A stretch of 21,664 nt of DNA. It comes from a virus. Made by a program: the position numbers and the translations under genes. The notes beneath the pieces were generated by a model. The model did no database searches and was not told the origin of the DNA. It saw only the letters and a program-made list of their open reading frames with translations. Positions 7,429-21,664 of the stretch are shown piece by piece. The stretch lies in IMG/VR virus record IMGVR_UViG_3300029787_000387, positions 1 to 21,664 of that record; one strand, 5' to 3'. How positions within the stretch are numbered: position 1 is the stretch's first letter; the number at the start of each line of letters is the position of its first letter.

Positions 7429-7680
7429 ATGTCAAAGAATCCTGGTGGCACCGTAATCTATACTAGATCTGGTTGTCCTTACTGCACAAAAATCAAAGAG
7501 GTTTACAAAACAAAGGGTTGGGGGTATACTGAGTACGCACTCGGTTCCCAGTTTACTCGCGAACAATTCAAGCAAGAGTTCGGACAGACTGCAACCTTCC
7601 CACAGATTCTTATCAATGGAATCAAAAAGGGTGGTTGCACCGAGACCATTTCATATTTGAGAGAAGGCAATTATCTATGA
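7429..7680 (+). CDS. Glutaredoxin
   Basis: This is an 83-aa thiol-disulfide oxidoreductase. The redox motif C16-P-Y-C19 is the classical dithiol glutaredoxin active site. A TFP segment (56-58) supplies the conserved cis-proline, and KGGC (67-70) is the glycine pair that helps bind glutathione, with an extra Cys. The length fits a minimal thioredoxin fold. In T4-like phages such proteins (T4 NrdC) supply electrons to ribonucleotide reductase, supporting dNTP synthesis; no reductase gene lies in the window, though thyX is in the same operon. It is the first gene after a terminator, and its stop overlaps the next start (ATGA). Confidence 0.93.
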   Translation: MSKNPGGTVIYTRSGCPYCTKIKEVYKTKGWGYTEYALGSQFTREQFKQEFGQTATFPQILINGIKKGGCTETISYLREGNYL

Positions 7681-12629: not shown

Positions 12630-13547
12630 ATGTCATTTTCATCGCTTAAAAAGTCTAGCAGTTCATCTATCAGTTCATTAACAAAAGAACTAGACAAGAT
12701 GACTACTAAGGGTGGGGGCAAAGGTCCCGACGAGCGTCTATGGAAACCAGAGGTGGATAAAGCAGGCAACGGTTACGCAGTAATCAGATTCCTTCCTGCT
12801 CCTACAAAGGAAGATCTACCTTGGGCACAAGTCTTTTCTCATGCATTCCAGGGTCCTGGTGGTTGGTACATCGAGAACTCGTTGACTACTCTTGGTCAGC
12901 AAGATCCAGTCGGTGACCTTAACCGCGTGCTCTGGAATTCGGGTTTAGACTCAGATAAAGATGTAGCAAGGAAACAAAAGAGGAAACTCTCCTACTACTC
13001 AAACATCTACGTTGTAAAAGATCCTCTACATCCAGAGAATGAAGGAAGAGTCTTCCTTTATAAGTATGGTAAGAAGATACATGATAAGATTGCTGAGGCA
13101 ATGAAACCTCAGTTTGAAGATGAAGATCCTATCAATCCTTTCTGTTTCTGGAAGGGTGCTGACTTCAAATTAAAGATAGTCAAGCAAGATGGATACTGGA
13201 ACTATGATCGTTCTGAGTTTGCTTCTGCGGGTACACTCGGTAACTTCGAGGACACTAAACTTGAAGAGATATATAATCAGGAGTATAGTTTAAAAGATTA
13301 TACTGAGGCAAAGAACTTCAAGTCATACGAAGAACTAGAAGCAAGATTGAATCTTGTTCTTGGTAAGGCAAGTCGTGCTTCTGCTATCAATGAAGACGAC
13401 GATGGTTTAGATTATGAAGATAAGATTACAGAACCAGTTGAAGAAGTGTCTACTACTCCAACACCAGGGTTCGGTAATGCTGTATCATCATTAAAAGAAG
13501 AGGAAGATCCTGATCTATCCTACTTTGCTAAACTAGCAGAAGAATAA
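12630..13547 (+). CDS. 32: Single-stranded DNA-binding protein gp32
   Basis: This 305-aa protein is close in length to T4 gp32 (301 aa). The N-terminal Lys/Ser region (KKSSSSSISSLTKEL) corresponds to the cooperativity arm. The core carries YAVIRFLPAP, the strongly conserved SNIYVVKDPLHPENEGRVF (124-142), YGKKIHDKI and FCFWKGADFKLKI. The C-terminus (about 254-305) is acidic, as expected for the tail that recruits replication and recombination partners. In T4 a zinc ion is held by His and three Cys; here the region reads QQDPVGDLNR (90-99) where T4 has Cys, and the only Cys in the protein is C172, so the zinc site is gone. GGAG precedes the start. It coats single-stranded DNA in replication and repair. 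Confidence 0.94.
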   Translation: MSFSSLKKSSSSSISSLTKELDKMTTKGGGKGPDERLWKPEVDKAGNGYAVIRFLPAPTKEDLPWAQVFSHAFQGPGGWYIENSLTTLGQQDPVGDLNRVLWNSGLDSDKDVARKQKRKLSYYSNIYVVKDPLHPENEGRVFLYKYGKKIHDKIAEAMKPQFEDEDPINPFCFWKGADFKLKIVKQDGYWNYDRSEFASAGTLGNFEDTKLEEIYNQEYSLKDYTEAKNFKSYEELEARLNLVLGKASRASAINEDDDGLDYEDKITEPVEEVSTTPTPGFGNAVSSLKEEEDPDLSYFAKLAEE

Positions 13548-13834
13548 TGAAAAAGATCGTACTTGCACTTGCAGCATTGTCATTTGCAACCCCTGCCAAC
13601 GCACTAACTTGGGCAGAGTTTTGGGAACCGTTTGTTGAATACAGCAATCATCACCATCACTCTTATGACAGAGGTTATCATTATAATGAAGACAGTTGTC
13701 TGCCAGTGCATTACGATTATTACTACTATGTTCCTGGATACTATAATGGACGTCATTATGTTAAAGGATACAAACGTAGAGAGACGAGGACTAAGTATGT
13801 TAACTGTCATACACCCTCGCATCATCATCACTAA
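13547..13834 (+). CDS. Secreted His/Tyr-rich small protein
   Basis: A 95-aa protein starting on the last base of the gp32 stop (TAATG). A signal peptide is clear: MKK, a hydrophobic core, and cleavage after ANA (17-19). The mature part of about 76 aa has 12 His, including HHHH at 35-38 and again as the last four residues (92-95), and 14 Tyr, with a YDYYYY run. Two Cys (51, 87) could form one disulfide. The composition suggests metal binding in the periplasm or on the cell surface, or a sticky low-complexity region. No family is recognised. A lysis-related or envelope role would be guesswork. Confidence 0.75.
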   Translation: MKKIVLALAALSFATPANALTWAEFWEPFVEYSNHHHHSYDRGYHYNEDSCLPVHYDYYYYVPGYYNGRHYVKGYKRRETRTKYVNCHTPSHHHH

Positions 13835-18715: not shown

Positions 18716-19417
18716 ATGCCATTACCAAAACTTGTAGTGCCTGAGTATGACTGTAAATTACCAGTCACAGGGAAAAAGGTCAACTTTCGACCATTTCTCG
18801 TAAAAGAAGAGAAATTACTGTATCTCGCAATGGAGACACAGAAAGAGAAAGAGATGATCAAGGCAGTCAAGAATATATTAAAATCTTGTACTGATTTGAA
18901 AAGTGTAGATAGTCTACCAACATTTGAACTAGAATTCTTGTTCTTACAGATTAGATCCAAAGCAGTTGGAGAAGAGAGTGAGTTCAAGATAATATGTGAA
19001 GATGATGGTAAGACAGAGGTAGAAGTTACACTTGACTTAAACGAAGTTCAAGTAGACATACCAAAAGGTCATAAGACTATCATACCATTGAGTGACGACA
19101 TCAAATTACAGATGAAATATCCAGCATTGGATGCATTCGTTGACCGTAATATGGTGGATAATCCAGATGTTGAAGATGTATTTGCTCTTGCAGCAGAGTG
19201 TATTGACAAAGTATATGATGGAGACGAGATCTATGATTCTTTCACATCGAAAGAAGCAAAGGACTTTATAGGTGACATGAATAATGCACAGTTTACTAAG
19301 ATCCAGAACTTCTTTGAGACTATGCCGAAATTAACTCATACATTGAAGGTAGAAAATCCCAACACCAAAGTTGTTAATGAAGTGGTATTGGAGGGACTTG
19401 CTGCTTTTTTCGGATAG
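18716..19417 (+). CDS. 26: gp26-like tail assembly chaperone / baseplate hub protein
   Basis: This 233-aa protein resembles T4 gp26 (208 aa). Seen are PLPKLVVPEYDCKLPVTGK followed by KVNFRPFLVKEEKLLYLAM, ILKSCTDLKSVDSLP, FELEFLFLQIRSKAVGE, and a C-terminal helical half with FIGDMNNAQFTKIQNFFETMP. gp26 is classed as a baseplate hub subunit in T4, but a gene with this helical pattern just before the tape measure also fits the tail assembly chaperone role. The last sense codons are TTT TTC GGA before TAG; they contain a slippery heptamer, and a -1 shift there gives a longer protein of about 299 aa (see 19405-19471). A late promoter stands 30 nt upstream. Confidence 0.85.
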   Translation: MPLPKLVVPEYDCKLPVTGKKVNFRPFLVKEEKLLYLAMETQKEKEMIKAVKNILKSCTDLKSVDSLPTFELEFLFLQIRSKAVGEESEFKIICEDDGKTEVEVTLDLNEVQVDIPKGHKTIIPLSDDIKLQMKYPALDAFVDRNMVDNPDVEDVFALAAECIDKVYDGDEIYDSFTSKEAKDFIGDMNNAQFTKIQNFFETMPKLTHTLKVENPNTKVVNEVVLEGLAAFFG

Positions 19418-19471
19418 CATTAATGCATGACAGTCTTATGAATCACTATAAGACGAACTTCGCATTAATGC
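19405..19471 (+). promoter_or_regulatory. Programmed -1 frameshift signal: slippery site plus stem-loop
   Basis: In the gp26 reading frame the end reads GC[T TTT TTC] GGA TAG, so T TTT TTC (19405-19411) is a textbook -1 slippery heptamer in the correct phase. After a 5-nt spacer (GGATA), the 10-mer GCATTAATGC (19417-19426) can pair with its second copy (19462-19471). Inside this, GTCTTAT (19433-19439) pairs with ATAAGAC (19448-19454) around an 8-nt loop. Together they form a two-tier stem-loop of 17 bp at the distance expected for a stimulatory structure. The -1 frame is open through CGG ATA GCA TTA into the frame at 19423. Confidence 0.75.
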
Positions 19472-19614
19472 AGCATCACAAGTATAGTTTGACGGAGTTA
19501 AACGATATGATTCCATGGGAACGTGATGTGTATGTTAACCTATTAATAGGACACTTGAAGGAAGAGGAAGAGCGAATCAAGAGACAACAGAACAAGAATA
19601 GGACTTCTATCTAG
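19411..19614 (+). CDS. Tail assembly chaperone -1 frameshift extension
   Basis: This frame has 63 codons from ATG 19423 (ending at 19614), or 67 residues (RIAL plus the 63) when entered from gp26 by -1 slippage at 19405-19411. There is no ribosome binding site before ATG 19423, which favours expression as a gp26 fusion. The sequence YSLTELNDMIPWERDVYVNL, then LIGHLKEEEERIKRQQ, resembles the short second frame of tail assembly chaperones (lambda T type): a Trp-containing turn followed by a charged helix. It occupies the slot of T4 gene 51 relative to gene 26, but is much shorter than gp51. Its stop overlaps the GTG start of the tape measure gene. Confidence 0.75.
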   Translation, partial: RIALMHDSLMNHYKTNFALMQHHKYSLTELNDMIPWERDVYVNLLIGHLKEEEERIKRQQNKNRTSI

Positions 19615-21664
19615 TGGCAGCAACACTAAGAGAATATATCAGCGTCAAACCGCCTAGTGGTAATTCGGCACAGGTTAAAGCGATGCGTCCTCTTTTAGTC
19701 AGTCAGAATAGACTAGGTGGAGCAGTCACATATTTTGGTCAACAGATAAAAGATCTCAGTGAGATCATGTCGGTTCATGCAGATGTTTCTAGTGCATTAG
19801 TAACAGAAGAGAAAACATTATTAGACGACGAGCATGAACACCGTAAAGAATTAATCAAACCTTTAACTCCTATCTCCCCTTTGGTAGATCAAGGAAGAAA
19901 GAATGACAAAGCAGCAGAAGATGCACAAGAAGATGATGAGGAGGATGAAGATAGTAAAGACGTAGGTGAAAAGATAGCAGAGAAAGAAGAGAAAAAGTTG
20001 ACATGGTGGCAGAGACTTCTAAAAGGTTTCGCACCCATTGTCAATTTTATTTCAAATGCATTTACAGCATTCGTAGCATATAAGGCATTTGATTGGTTGA
20101 GTGATCCTAATAACCAAAAGAATGCACAGACAGTATTAAAAGGACTAGGTGCCATAGTAGGTGCTGCTGCAAAGATTGCTGGTTTTGGTGTCTTTCAAGT
20201 CATGGAAGGTGTCACCAAAGTATTCGGCACCAACCCAGACAGTAAAGGTATAGGTAAGGTATTTGATAAGTTATTTGGTGTTTTACAGATATTTGGTGGA
20301 TTAGGGTCATTATGGGCAGCGTCACGAATATTGATGCCATGGAAACTTGTAGGTGACTACAAGAAAATGAAGAAACTTGGTGATACACTAGGTAAAATCA
20401 AGAAGTTCTTCCAAAGAAAACCAAACGTACCAAAGGTAACACAAGGAAAAGGTGGAAAAGTAAAGGGTAAACCCAAAGCAAAGATTACTGGTAGTAAAGT
20501 TGGGATAGTAGATCGTGCCAAACAGTTTGGTAAGAAGAAGTTATCACAGGTAAAGAATCTAAAAAATAATGTGGTGACTAAGGTAAAAGGTATTCCTAAG
20601 ACCATATCTAAGATAAAAGGTAATGTCACGAATATGGGTAAAAACATAGGAAACTTTGGTAAGAATGTATTTACTAAGGGTAAGAACTTCCTAGGTAAAG
20701 CAAAGTCATTTGGAATGGATGCGATAGAGAAAGGTAAGAACATATACAAAGGTGCTAGTGAGTGGGCATCAAAGAATGTTGGTAGAATGAAGAACCTTGC
20801 AAAGAAAGCAGGAAAGGGTGTATTTGATTTTGGAAAGAACCTAGGATCAAAGATCAAAGGTCTCAAAGATATGGTGAAGAATCCACAGCAGATGTTCAAA
20901 CCTGTAATGGAGAGGATAAAGGGTGCCATTAAACCTATTATAGAAAAGAACCCTAACATTAAGAAGGTACTGTCTCTTAAAAATGCAAAGACTGGATTGA
21001 AGAATGCAAAAGACTTTGCAATCAAGAATGTTAAGGTTGCAATGAAGAGCAAGGAGATGGCAAACCTATCCAAGTTCTTGAAAGAAGCAAAAGGAAGAGT
21101 AAAGATAGGTGGTATTGATAAAGTTATAGCAGCAGTCATGGGACTCATAGACTATGGTATGGGTGAGTCTCCTATCAATGCTATTGTAAGTGCAACATCT
21201 GGACTACTAGGATATGCTGCTGGTTTTGCAATCGGTTCACCGTTCGGTGGTTTCCCTGGATTTGTCACAGGTGCAGCAGGAGGTATGGCAGGAGAATTTA
21301 TTGGTGGTCAATTACTAAGAGGTCTTGCCAAGTTCCCTGTATTTAAGAAATACACAGAGATAGAAGATCCACTTGCTAATGCATTAGGATTGAGTCCAAG
21401 ACCAATACTTAGAGATCCAGACGTAGAGAGGAAAAAAGAGAATGACGAGAAGATTAATAAACTCTTGGAGGAAGAGGACGAGGATAAGTTTGTTTTACCA
21501 CAGGATGAGAAAACTATAAGTCTTTTAGATTATGGTGGTGTTGACGATCAAAAGTATAGTCTTAACCAACTATATGTTATGGAGAATAATGGTGATGAGG
21601 CAGCGATAAAGTATCTTGAAGCGAGAAGAAATATGCATAAAATCATGAATGAAAGGATGGGTAG
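19614..21664 (+). CDS. Tape measure protein, gp29-like (partial, runs off the window)
   Basis: The frame opens at GTG 19614 (TAGTG overlap with the chaperone stop) and stays open for 683 codons to the end of the window. The N-terminal 100 residues are helical. An acidic stretch follows (about 102-127), then a hydrophobic helix (about 135-165, FAPIVNFISNAFTAF). Residues 250-480 are a long Lys/Gly/Asn-rich helical region with loose repeats of the type GKN-x-GNFGKN and KGKNFLGKAKSF. At about 531-566 a Gly/Ala-rich membrane-like segment (GYAAGFAIGSPFGGF and GAAGGMAGEFIGG) appears, then a charged C-terminal part. This layout, and the place right after the chaperone frameshift, fit the tail length-determining protein, which sits inside the tube and may enter the host membrane. 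Sequence similarity to T4 gp29 is not obvious by eye. Confidence 0.8.
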   Translation, partial: MAATLREYISVKPPSGNSAQVKAMRPLLVSQNRLGGAVTYFGQQIKDLSEIMSVHADVSSALVTEEKTLLDDEHEHRKELIKPLTPISPLVDQGRKNDKAAEDAQEDDEEDEDSKDVGEKIAEKEEKKLTWWQRLLKGFAPIVNFISNAFTAFVAYKAFDWLSDPNNQKNAQTVLKGLGAIVGAAAKIAGFGVFQVMEGVTKVFGTNPDSKGIGKVFDKLFGVLQIFGGLGSLWAASRILMPWKLVGDYKKMKKLGDTLGKIKKFFQRKPNVPKVTQGKGGKVKGKPKAKITGSKVGIVDRAKQFGKKKLSQVKNLKNNVVTKVKGIPKTISKIKGNVTNMGKNIGNFGKNVFTKGKNFLGKAKSFGMDAIEKGKNIYKGASEWASKNVGRMKNLAKKAGKGVFDFGKNLGSKIKGLKDMVKNPQQMFKPVMERIKGAIKPIIEKNPNIKKVLSLKNAKTGLKNAKDFAIKNVKVAMKSKEMANLSKFLKEAKGRVKIGGIDKVIAAVMGLIDYGMGESPINAIVSATSGLLGYAAGFAIGSPFGGFPGFVTGAAGGMAGEFIGGQLLRGLAKFPVFKKYTEIEDPLANALGLSPRPILRDPDVERKKENDEKINKLLEEEDEDKFVLPQDEKTISLLDYGGVDDQKYSLNQLYVMENNGDEAAIKYLEARRNMHKIMNERMG

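Follow-up and report, generated by a model that had tools for sequence, protein, structure and literature searches.

A near-invariant TTTTTT run as a probable slip site, and candidate frameshift stimulators, at the gp26-gp51 junction of T4-like phages

How does a T4-like cyanophage express the reading frame that lies between gp26 and the next large gene? This question was raised by the DNA of an uncultured cyanophage (IMG/VR record IMGVR_UViG_3300029787_000387, positions 1 to 21,664; this whole stretch of 21,664 nucleotides is hereafter the window). The gp26 gene (18716..19417, + strand) encodes 233 amino acids, ends with TAG, and belongs to the T4_baseplate family (PF12322, 6.6e-69, 232 bits against a curated cut-off of 24.5; phrog_150, 2e-75). 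Its product may be the short form of a tail assembly chaperone (TAC-N). The 3′ end of the gene reads GCT GCT TTT TTC GGA TAG, so that a slippery heptamer T_TTT_TTC occupies 19405..19411 (+) in frame 0 of gp26. The heptamer is followed by the 5-nt spacer GGATA (19412..19416, +), in which GGA, the final codon of gp26, precedes the TA of the TAG stop (19415-19417). From the heptamer, the -1 frame is open to 19614 (19405..19614, +) and provides an extension of 66 codons leading into the gp51 frame; a -1 frameshift would thus produce a 299-aa fusion (TAC-NC) with a gp51-type C-terminal domain. It was found that phrog_634 matches the extension from the junction residue onward (1.2e-30), while the phrog_150 match also takes in residues 232-278. 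A preliminary description of this DNA had pointed out the in-phase heptamer, the 5-nt spacer, and the open -1 frame, and all three are where it placed them. The same region holds an ORF (19423..19614, +) that is annotated as a separate gp51 gene in relatives. Its ATG is missing at that place in many lineages. The preliminary description saw no ribosome binding site before this ATG; a weak anti-SD pairing (-3.3 kcal/mol) does exist there, and nothing stronger. The large gene that follows (19614..21662, +) exits the window and is presumed from its position to encode the tape measure protein.

Is the heptamer merely a chance occurrence? Among the + strand ORFs checked, 22 X_XXY_YYZ sites are in frame. 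The site at 19405 is the sole TTTTTT among them, and it is the only one of the 22 located less than 40 nt from a stop codon. Thus, the heptamer is more than a product of chance. One other site, AAAGGGT at 7626-7632, is in phase in a glutaredoxin-like ORF (7429-7680) and opens a long -1 frame of 135 codons into the next gene, a configuration that overlapping genes could give by chance. Elsewhere in the window, a gene for a PstS-like phosphate-binding protein was read from the translation of 389-1354, and a small predicted secreted protein that is very rich in histidine (HHHH runs) is encoded at 13547-13834, adjoining a gp32-like gene.

Is the slip site conserved in relatives, as the preliminary description had asked? 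Loci were collected from viral contigs and phage records, giving 251 gp26 genes with a visible stop codon. TTTTTT was found in phase near the stop in 250 of them: TTTTTTC in 231 loci, TTTTTTT in 17, and TTTTTTG and TTTTTTA in one each. Every complete locus has a -1 extension of 58-71 codons. The carriers include cyanophages, Pelagibacter phage Mosig, Sinorhizobium phiM12, Stenotrophomonas Bhz51, Delftia W-14, and Rhizobium Y68, as well as Straboviridae outside the T4 group (Aeromonas AS-zj and Vibrio XZ1). The site is also present in Cronobacter S13, which was inspected in addition to these. The nearest isolate found to the present phage is S-SZBM1, whose gp26 is 73.6% identical. In some records, the -1 extension of gp26 carries no annotation at all (L085 of Aeromonas AS-zj, from 2199 onward; L284 of Cronobacter S13, from 1869 onward; and L279-L280).

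Clustering at 80% protein identity gave 90 lineages, and the codons at the slip site were compared among these. All of them (90/90) have TTT as the first Phe codon, for which the background frequency is 74%. The second is TTC in 73/88 lineages against a background of 26% (p 3e-29), although this and the other binomial p-values given below overstate independence because the lineages compared are related. The codon before the Phe pair ends with T in 90/90 lineages. After clustering at 60%, TTT was still found in 34/34. It is known that, in E. coli, U_UU.C ranks second among tetramers for shift-proneness and that H_HH.U_UU.Y heptamers shift with some of the highest efficiencies (PMC4066793). Might RNA polymerase, rather than the ribosome, slip on the T run to give the -1 frame? 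The near invariance of the six-T run would suit such an explanation. There are other systems in which runs of T are known to cause slippage. However, polymerase slippage would favour the longer run, whereas TTTTTTC is preferred to TTTTTTT in 73 versus 15 lineages even though TTT is the common Phe codon (74%), and the internal Shine-Dalgarno (SD) sequence and downstream stem described below act on ribosomes. On these grounds transcriptional slippage was rejected, and it is the least probable of the explanations considered here, with hardly any weight left to it.

Is the extension decoded as part of a fusion or from a start codon of its own? At extension codons 4-5, which are those past the frame-0 stop, single differences are 1317 synonymous and 346 nonsynonymous in the -1 frame (expected, 527 and 1136); these are pairwise counts of related lineages that indicate direction and size and carry no formal probability. 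In 42/78 lineages, the first 16 extension codons hold no ATG, and GTG or TTG is found among them in only 2 of these lineages. In the lineages devoid of ATG, the start region of the extension is still under coding constraint. The SD energy at the first extension ATG is -1.5 kcal/mol on average, versus -5.0 kcal/mol at the start of gp26 itself. Thus, the conserved ribosome binding site that the preliminary description named as evidence against a frameshift is, on average, absent from relatives. These results suggest that the extension is decoded in continuation of gp26, giving a fusion, and that it does not depend on a start codon of its own.

The competing possibility is that gp51 is made separately, by termination-reinitiation at ATG 19423, 5 nt past the gp26 stop, or through a TAATG or TGATG overlap in some relatives. 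The two-gene annotation of the locus in the records of relatives agrees with this, as do the ATG just past the stop in P-SSM2-type loci and the TAATG or TGATG at the stop in several distant phages. Nevertheless, the 42 lineages without an early ATG have codons in that region that evolve as a -1-frame protein, an SD is lacking before the first ATG, the slip site persists with a codon choice unlike the background, and both parts are fused in frame in T4-group phages. Separate translation as the main route was rejected on the missing ATG and SD, the retained slip site, and the T4-group fusion; it is highly improbable. The frameshift is the best supported reading because the slip site is kept, its codons are selected, and the -1 frame is under coding constraint before, or even without, any start codon. 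It is therefore very probable that the phage makes gp26 and a 299-aa gp26-gp51 fusion by a -1 frameshift, as far as comparison of sequences can tell. The central claim of the preliminary description, gp26 plus a fusion of about 299 aa, is thus supported by slip-site conservation, codon choice, and the -1-frame constraint.

What may stimulate the shift? An element that the preliminary description did not mention is a putative internal SD, GGAGGG (19390..19395, +), whose GGAGG (19390-19394) is positioned 10 nt upstream of the heptamer as counted from its last G. The anti-SD energy at this site is -9.8 kcal/mol, and 0.2% of background gp26 windows reach that value. In 34/49 lineages, Glu at the SD place is encoded by GAG (background 30%, p 1e-8; 13/16 after clustering at 60%), and the invariant Gly codon there is GGA or GGG in 52/90 (background 30%, p 3e-8). 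The anti-SD energy is -6.26 kcal/mol versus -4.77 kcal/mol for a synonymous-codon null (p 5e-11). The same shift was sought in nine control blocks along gp26, and none showed it. Thus, codon choice across lineages favours the internal SD. SD-type frameshift stimulators have been described (PMC4066793).

The second candidate stimulator is an RNA stem downstream (19417..19471, +). Two copies of the palindrome GCATTAATGC, at 19417-19426 and 19462-19471, can form the outer stem of 10 bp that the preliminary description reported. It also reported an inner stem of 7 bp; this stem is present and consists of 8 bp including one G-U (19433-19440 with 19447-19454). The fold of 19412-19480 has an energy of -21.9 kcal/mol (z -5.5 against dinucleotide shuffles), while the longer segment 19380-19500 gives a z of only -1.1. 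Across lineages, the folding bias is strongest just 3′ of the heptamer (mean z -1.67 with synonymous shuffles; controls, -0.3 to -0.8). In the window clade, both stems are kept: across 24 distinct relatives, 96.5% of cells are paired. Only the nearer relatives have the outer stem, and the expected compensatory changes are modest: an AU-to-GC change in the inner stem in 9 sequences, with G-U intermediates, is the only clear such column in the window clade, and the other variation is mostly G-U changes. In the P-SSM2 clade, a spacer of likewise 5 nt is followed by an 11-bp hairpin (93.6% paired) that is unrelated to these stems. Distant clades have a different stem at that position, or none. Thus, of the elements whose conservation the preliminary description had asked about, the stems are clade-specific.

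Might the stem be a by-product of a repeated A-L-M motif, with the heptamer alone driving the shift? Read in the -1 frame, the palindromes spell A-L-M-H and A-L-M-Q, and their identity therefore stems partly from the protein sequence. Such a by-product would also explain why most variation in the outer stem consists of G-U changes, why distant clades have lost it, and why 45/89 lineages have no clear stem. On the other hand, the stem segment of the window has a z of -3.6 even against synonymous-codon shuffles, the inner stem shows the AU-to-GC change, and the P-SSM2 clade places a different hairpin at the same 5-nt spacing. I consider the by-product explanation unlikely, although it deserves far more weight than the two rivals above. 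Both a clear SD and a clear stem were found in 26/89 lineages, and neither in 28/89. The latter suggest that these elements modulate the system rather than define it.

The predicted signal, with an SD at 10 nt, T_TTT_TTC, and a stem 5 nt downstream at -21.9 kcal/mol, has the layout of a dnaX-type cassette. The E. coli dnaX signal likewise has an SD about 10 nt upstream, a one-base-repeat heptamer, and a stem about 5 nt downstream. The two differ in that the heptamer is T-based here and in that the dnaX shift yields the shorter product, whereas the shift here would yield the longer one. The lambda gpG/gpGT pair is similar in that a -1 shift close to the 3′ end of the short gene, directly upstream of the tape measure gene, gives short and long forms; here the gene downstream is a presumed tape measure gene. 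The lambda heptamer is G_GGA_AAG, unlike T_TTT_TTC, and the present phage presumably has a contractile tail, which lambda does not. In the proposed mechanism, most ribosomes would terminate at TAG 19415-19417, which yields the 233-aa short chaperone. Some would pause with P- and A-site tRNA-Phe on TTT TTC, owing to anti-SD pairing to the upstream GGAGG and to the stem 5 nt downstream. Both tRNAs would then move back by one base to pair with TTT TTT, after which the gp51 frame would be read to give the 299-aa fusion. By analogy to lambda gpG/gpGT, the short form may coat the tape measure protein, the fusion may recruit tail tube subunits, and neither may stay in the virion. The comparison shows the slip site, the frame, that the extension is coding from the junction on, and signs of selection on the stimulators; shift efficiency and protein functions are inferred.

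Is gp26 a chaperone rather than a structural hub subunit, as the preliminary description proposed? The chaperone reading is not new. A 2010 review listed gp26 and gp51 as hub assembly chaperones and gp51 as absent from the particle (PMC3004832), and the 2022 study of Vladimirov, Gautam and Davidson, as PMC10885494 and PMC12846349 cite it, identified gp26/gp51 of T4-like phages as tail assembly chaperones. The record of Acinetobacter phage Konradin names gp26 and gp51 as tape measure protein assembly chaperones. The structure model of gp26 (pLDDT 86) has the HK97 tail assembly chaperone 2ob9 as its top PDB fold match, with a non-significant E of 0.43. The fold search of a T4-type gp51 model against the PDB gave no significant match, and a gp26-profile sequence search of the PDB gave only weak matches, to an unrelated protein. 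The PDB has T4 gp29 chains (9mkb), while a T4 gp26 or gp51 chain was not found; the missing chain is an indirect sign of absence from the virion. The downstream gene belongs to a family common to S-SZBM1, P-SSM2, C48C1, Vibrio XZ1, and Stenotrophomonas Bhz51. Comparison with T4 gp29 gave no match, the library labels for the gene hold no tape-measure name, and T4 gp29 was not found in the cyanophage, Vibrio XZ1, and Aeromonas AS-zj genomes. This long conserved gene directly 3′ of the extension is presumed to be the tape measure gene by position.

How does T4 itself fit in? T4 has often been cited as an exception to the conserved frameshift of tail chaperones (for example in PMC5009743). Its gp26 is homologous throughout to that of the window; unlike here, genes 26 and 51 are two genes on opposite strands without a slip site. 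It was revealed that residues 1-201 of T4 gp51 match PF12322, the gp26 family (177 bits), and that its C-terminal part is homologous to the cyanophage extension (hhalign E 8e-7). There are two PF12322 genes in 5/5 T4-group genomes, and one, together with a -1 extension, in each of 13 others. By homology, T4 gp51 is therefore a gp26 paralogue with the same extension fused in frame, and in the T4 group the long form has a second gene of its own. This duplicated long form agrees with the 2022 study as cited in PMC10885494 and PMC12846349. In one T4-type contig (L262, 2501-3246), a frame change of apparently one base, which a sequencing error probably explains, breaks gp51.

A further variant was found in the two phages of Ackermannviridae with scanned genomes or inspected gene ends, and in the Ackermannviridae-like Vibrio phage K413, where NTT TTC or GTT TTT replaces T_TTT_TTC and the -1 extension is open. 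A single PF12322 gene was counted in Serratia 3M, and likewise in Vibrio K413. T_TTT_TTC itself occurs in the Ackermannviridae-like Vibrio phage Bakedbeans. Seven loci (L279, L280, L281, L286, L091 of Ackermannviridae, L282, and L090) have a gp26 ending with NTT TTC (ATT, GTT, or CTT) or GTT TTT followed by a homologous -1 extension. Such ends are possibly a T_TTY tetramer version of the same shift. They resemble the GTTTTT motif reported for Vandenendeviridae (PMC12846349). A scan of viral contigs with the Vibrio K413 protein gave no match.

How new is this arrangement? According to PMC10885494 and PMC12846349, the 2022 study had already attributed poly-T slip signals to T4-like phages, and its protein families and pair of short and long forms are the same as those described here. 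The present case differs in coming from an uncultured cyanophage and in the analysis of the internal SD and clade-specific stems, for which I found no earlier description, the key 2022 study being represented by the papers that cite it. It is thus a well-supported new example of a published arrangement, not a new kind of system. More tentatively, at somewhat less than even odds, the chaperone ratio in T4-like phages may be set by exchangeable, codon-selected stimulators (an SD at 6-10 nt and a stem at 5 nt), the stem having re-evolved per clade beside a near-invariant slip site, with a T_TTC-type tetramer in Ackermannviridae and gene duplication replacing the slip site in the T4 group.

The many sequences compared show that T4 belongs to a family that mostly keeps the frameshift, while the T4 group itself has a duplicated, fused gene. 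Annotation of the cyanophage gp51 should treat it as the C-terminal part of a gp26 fusion and not as a separate catalyst, and the dnaX-like stimulators offer a way to test how the balance between the short and long forms is set.
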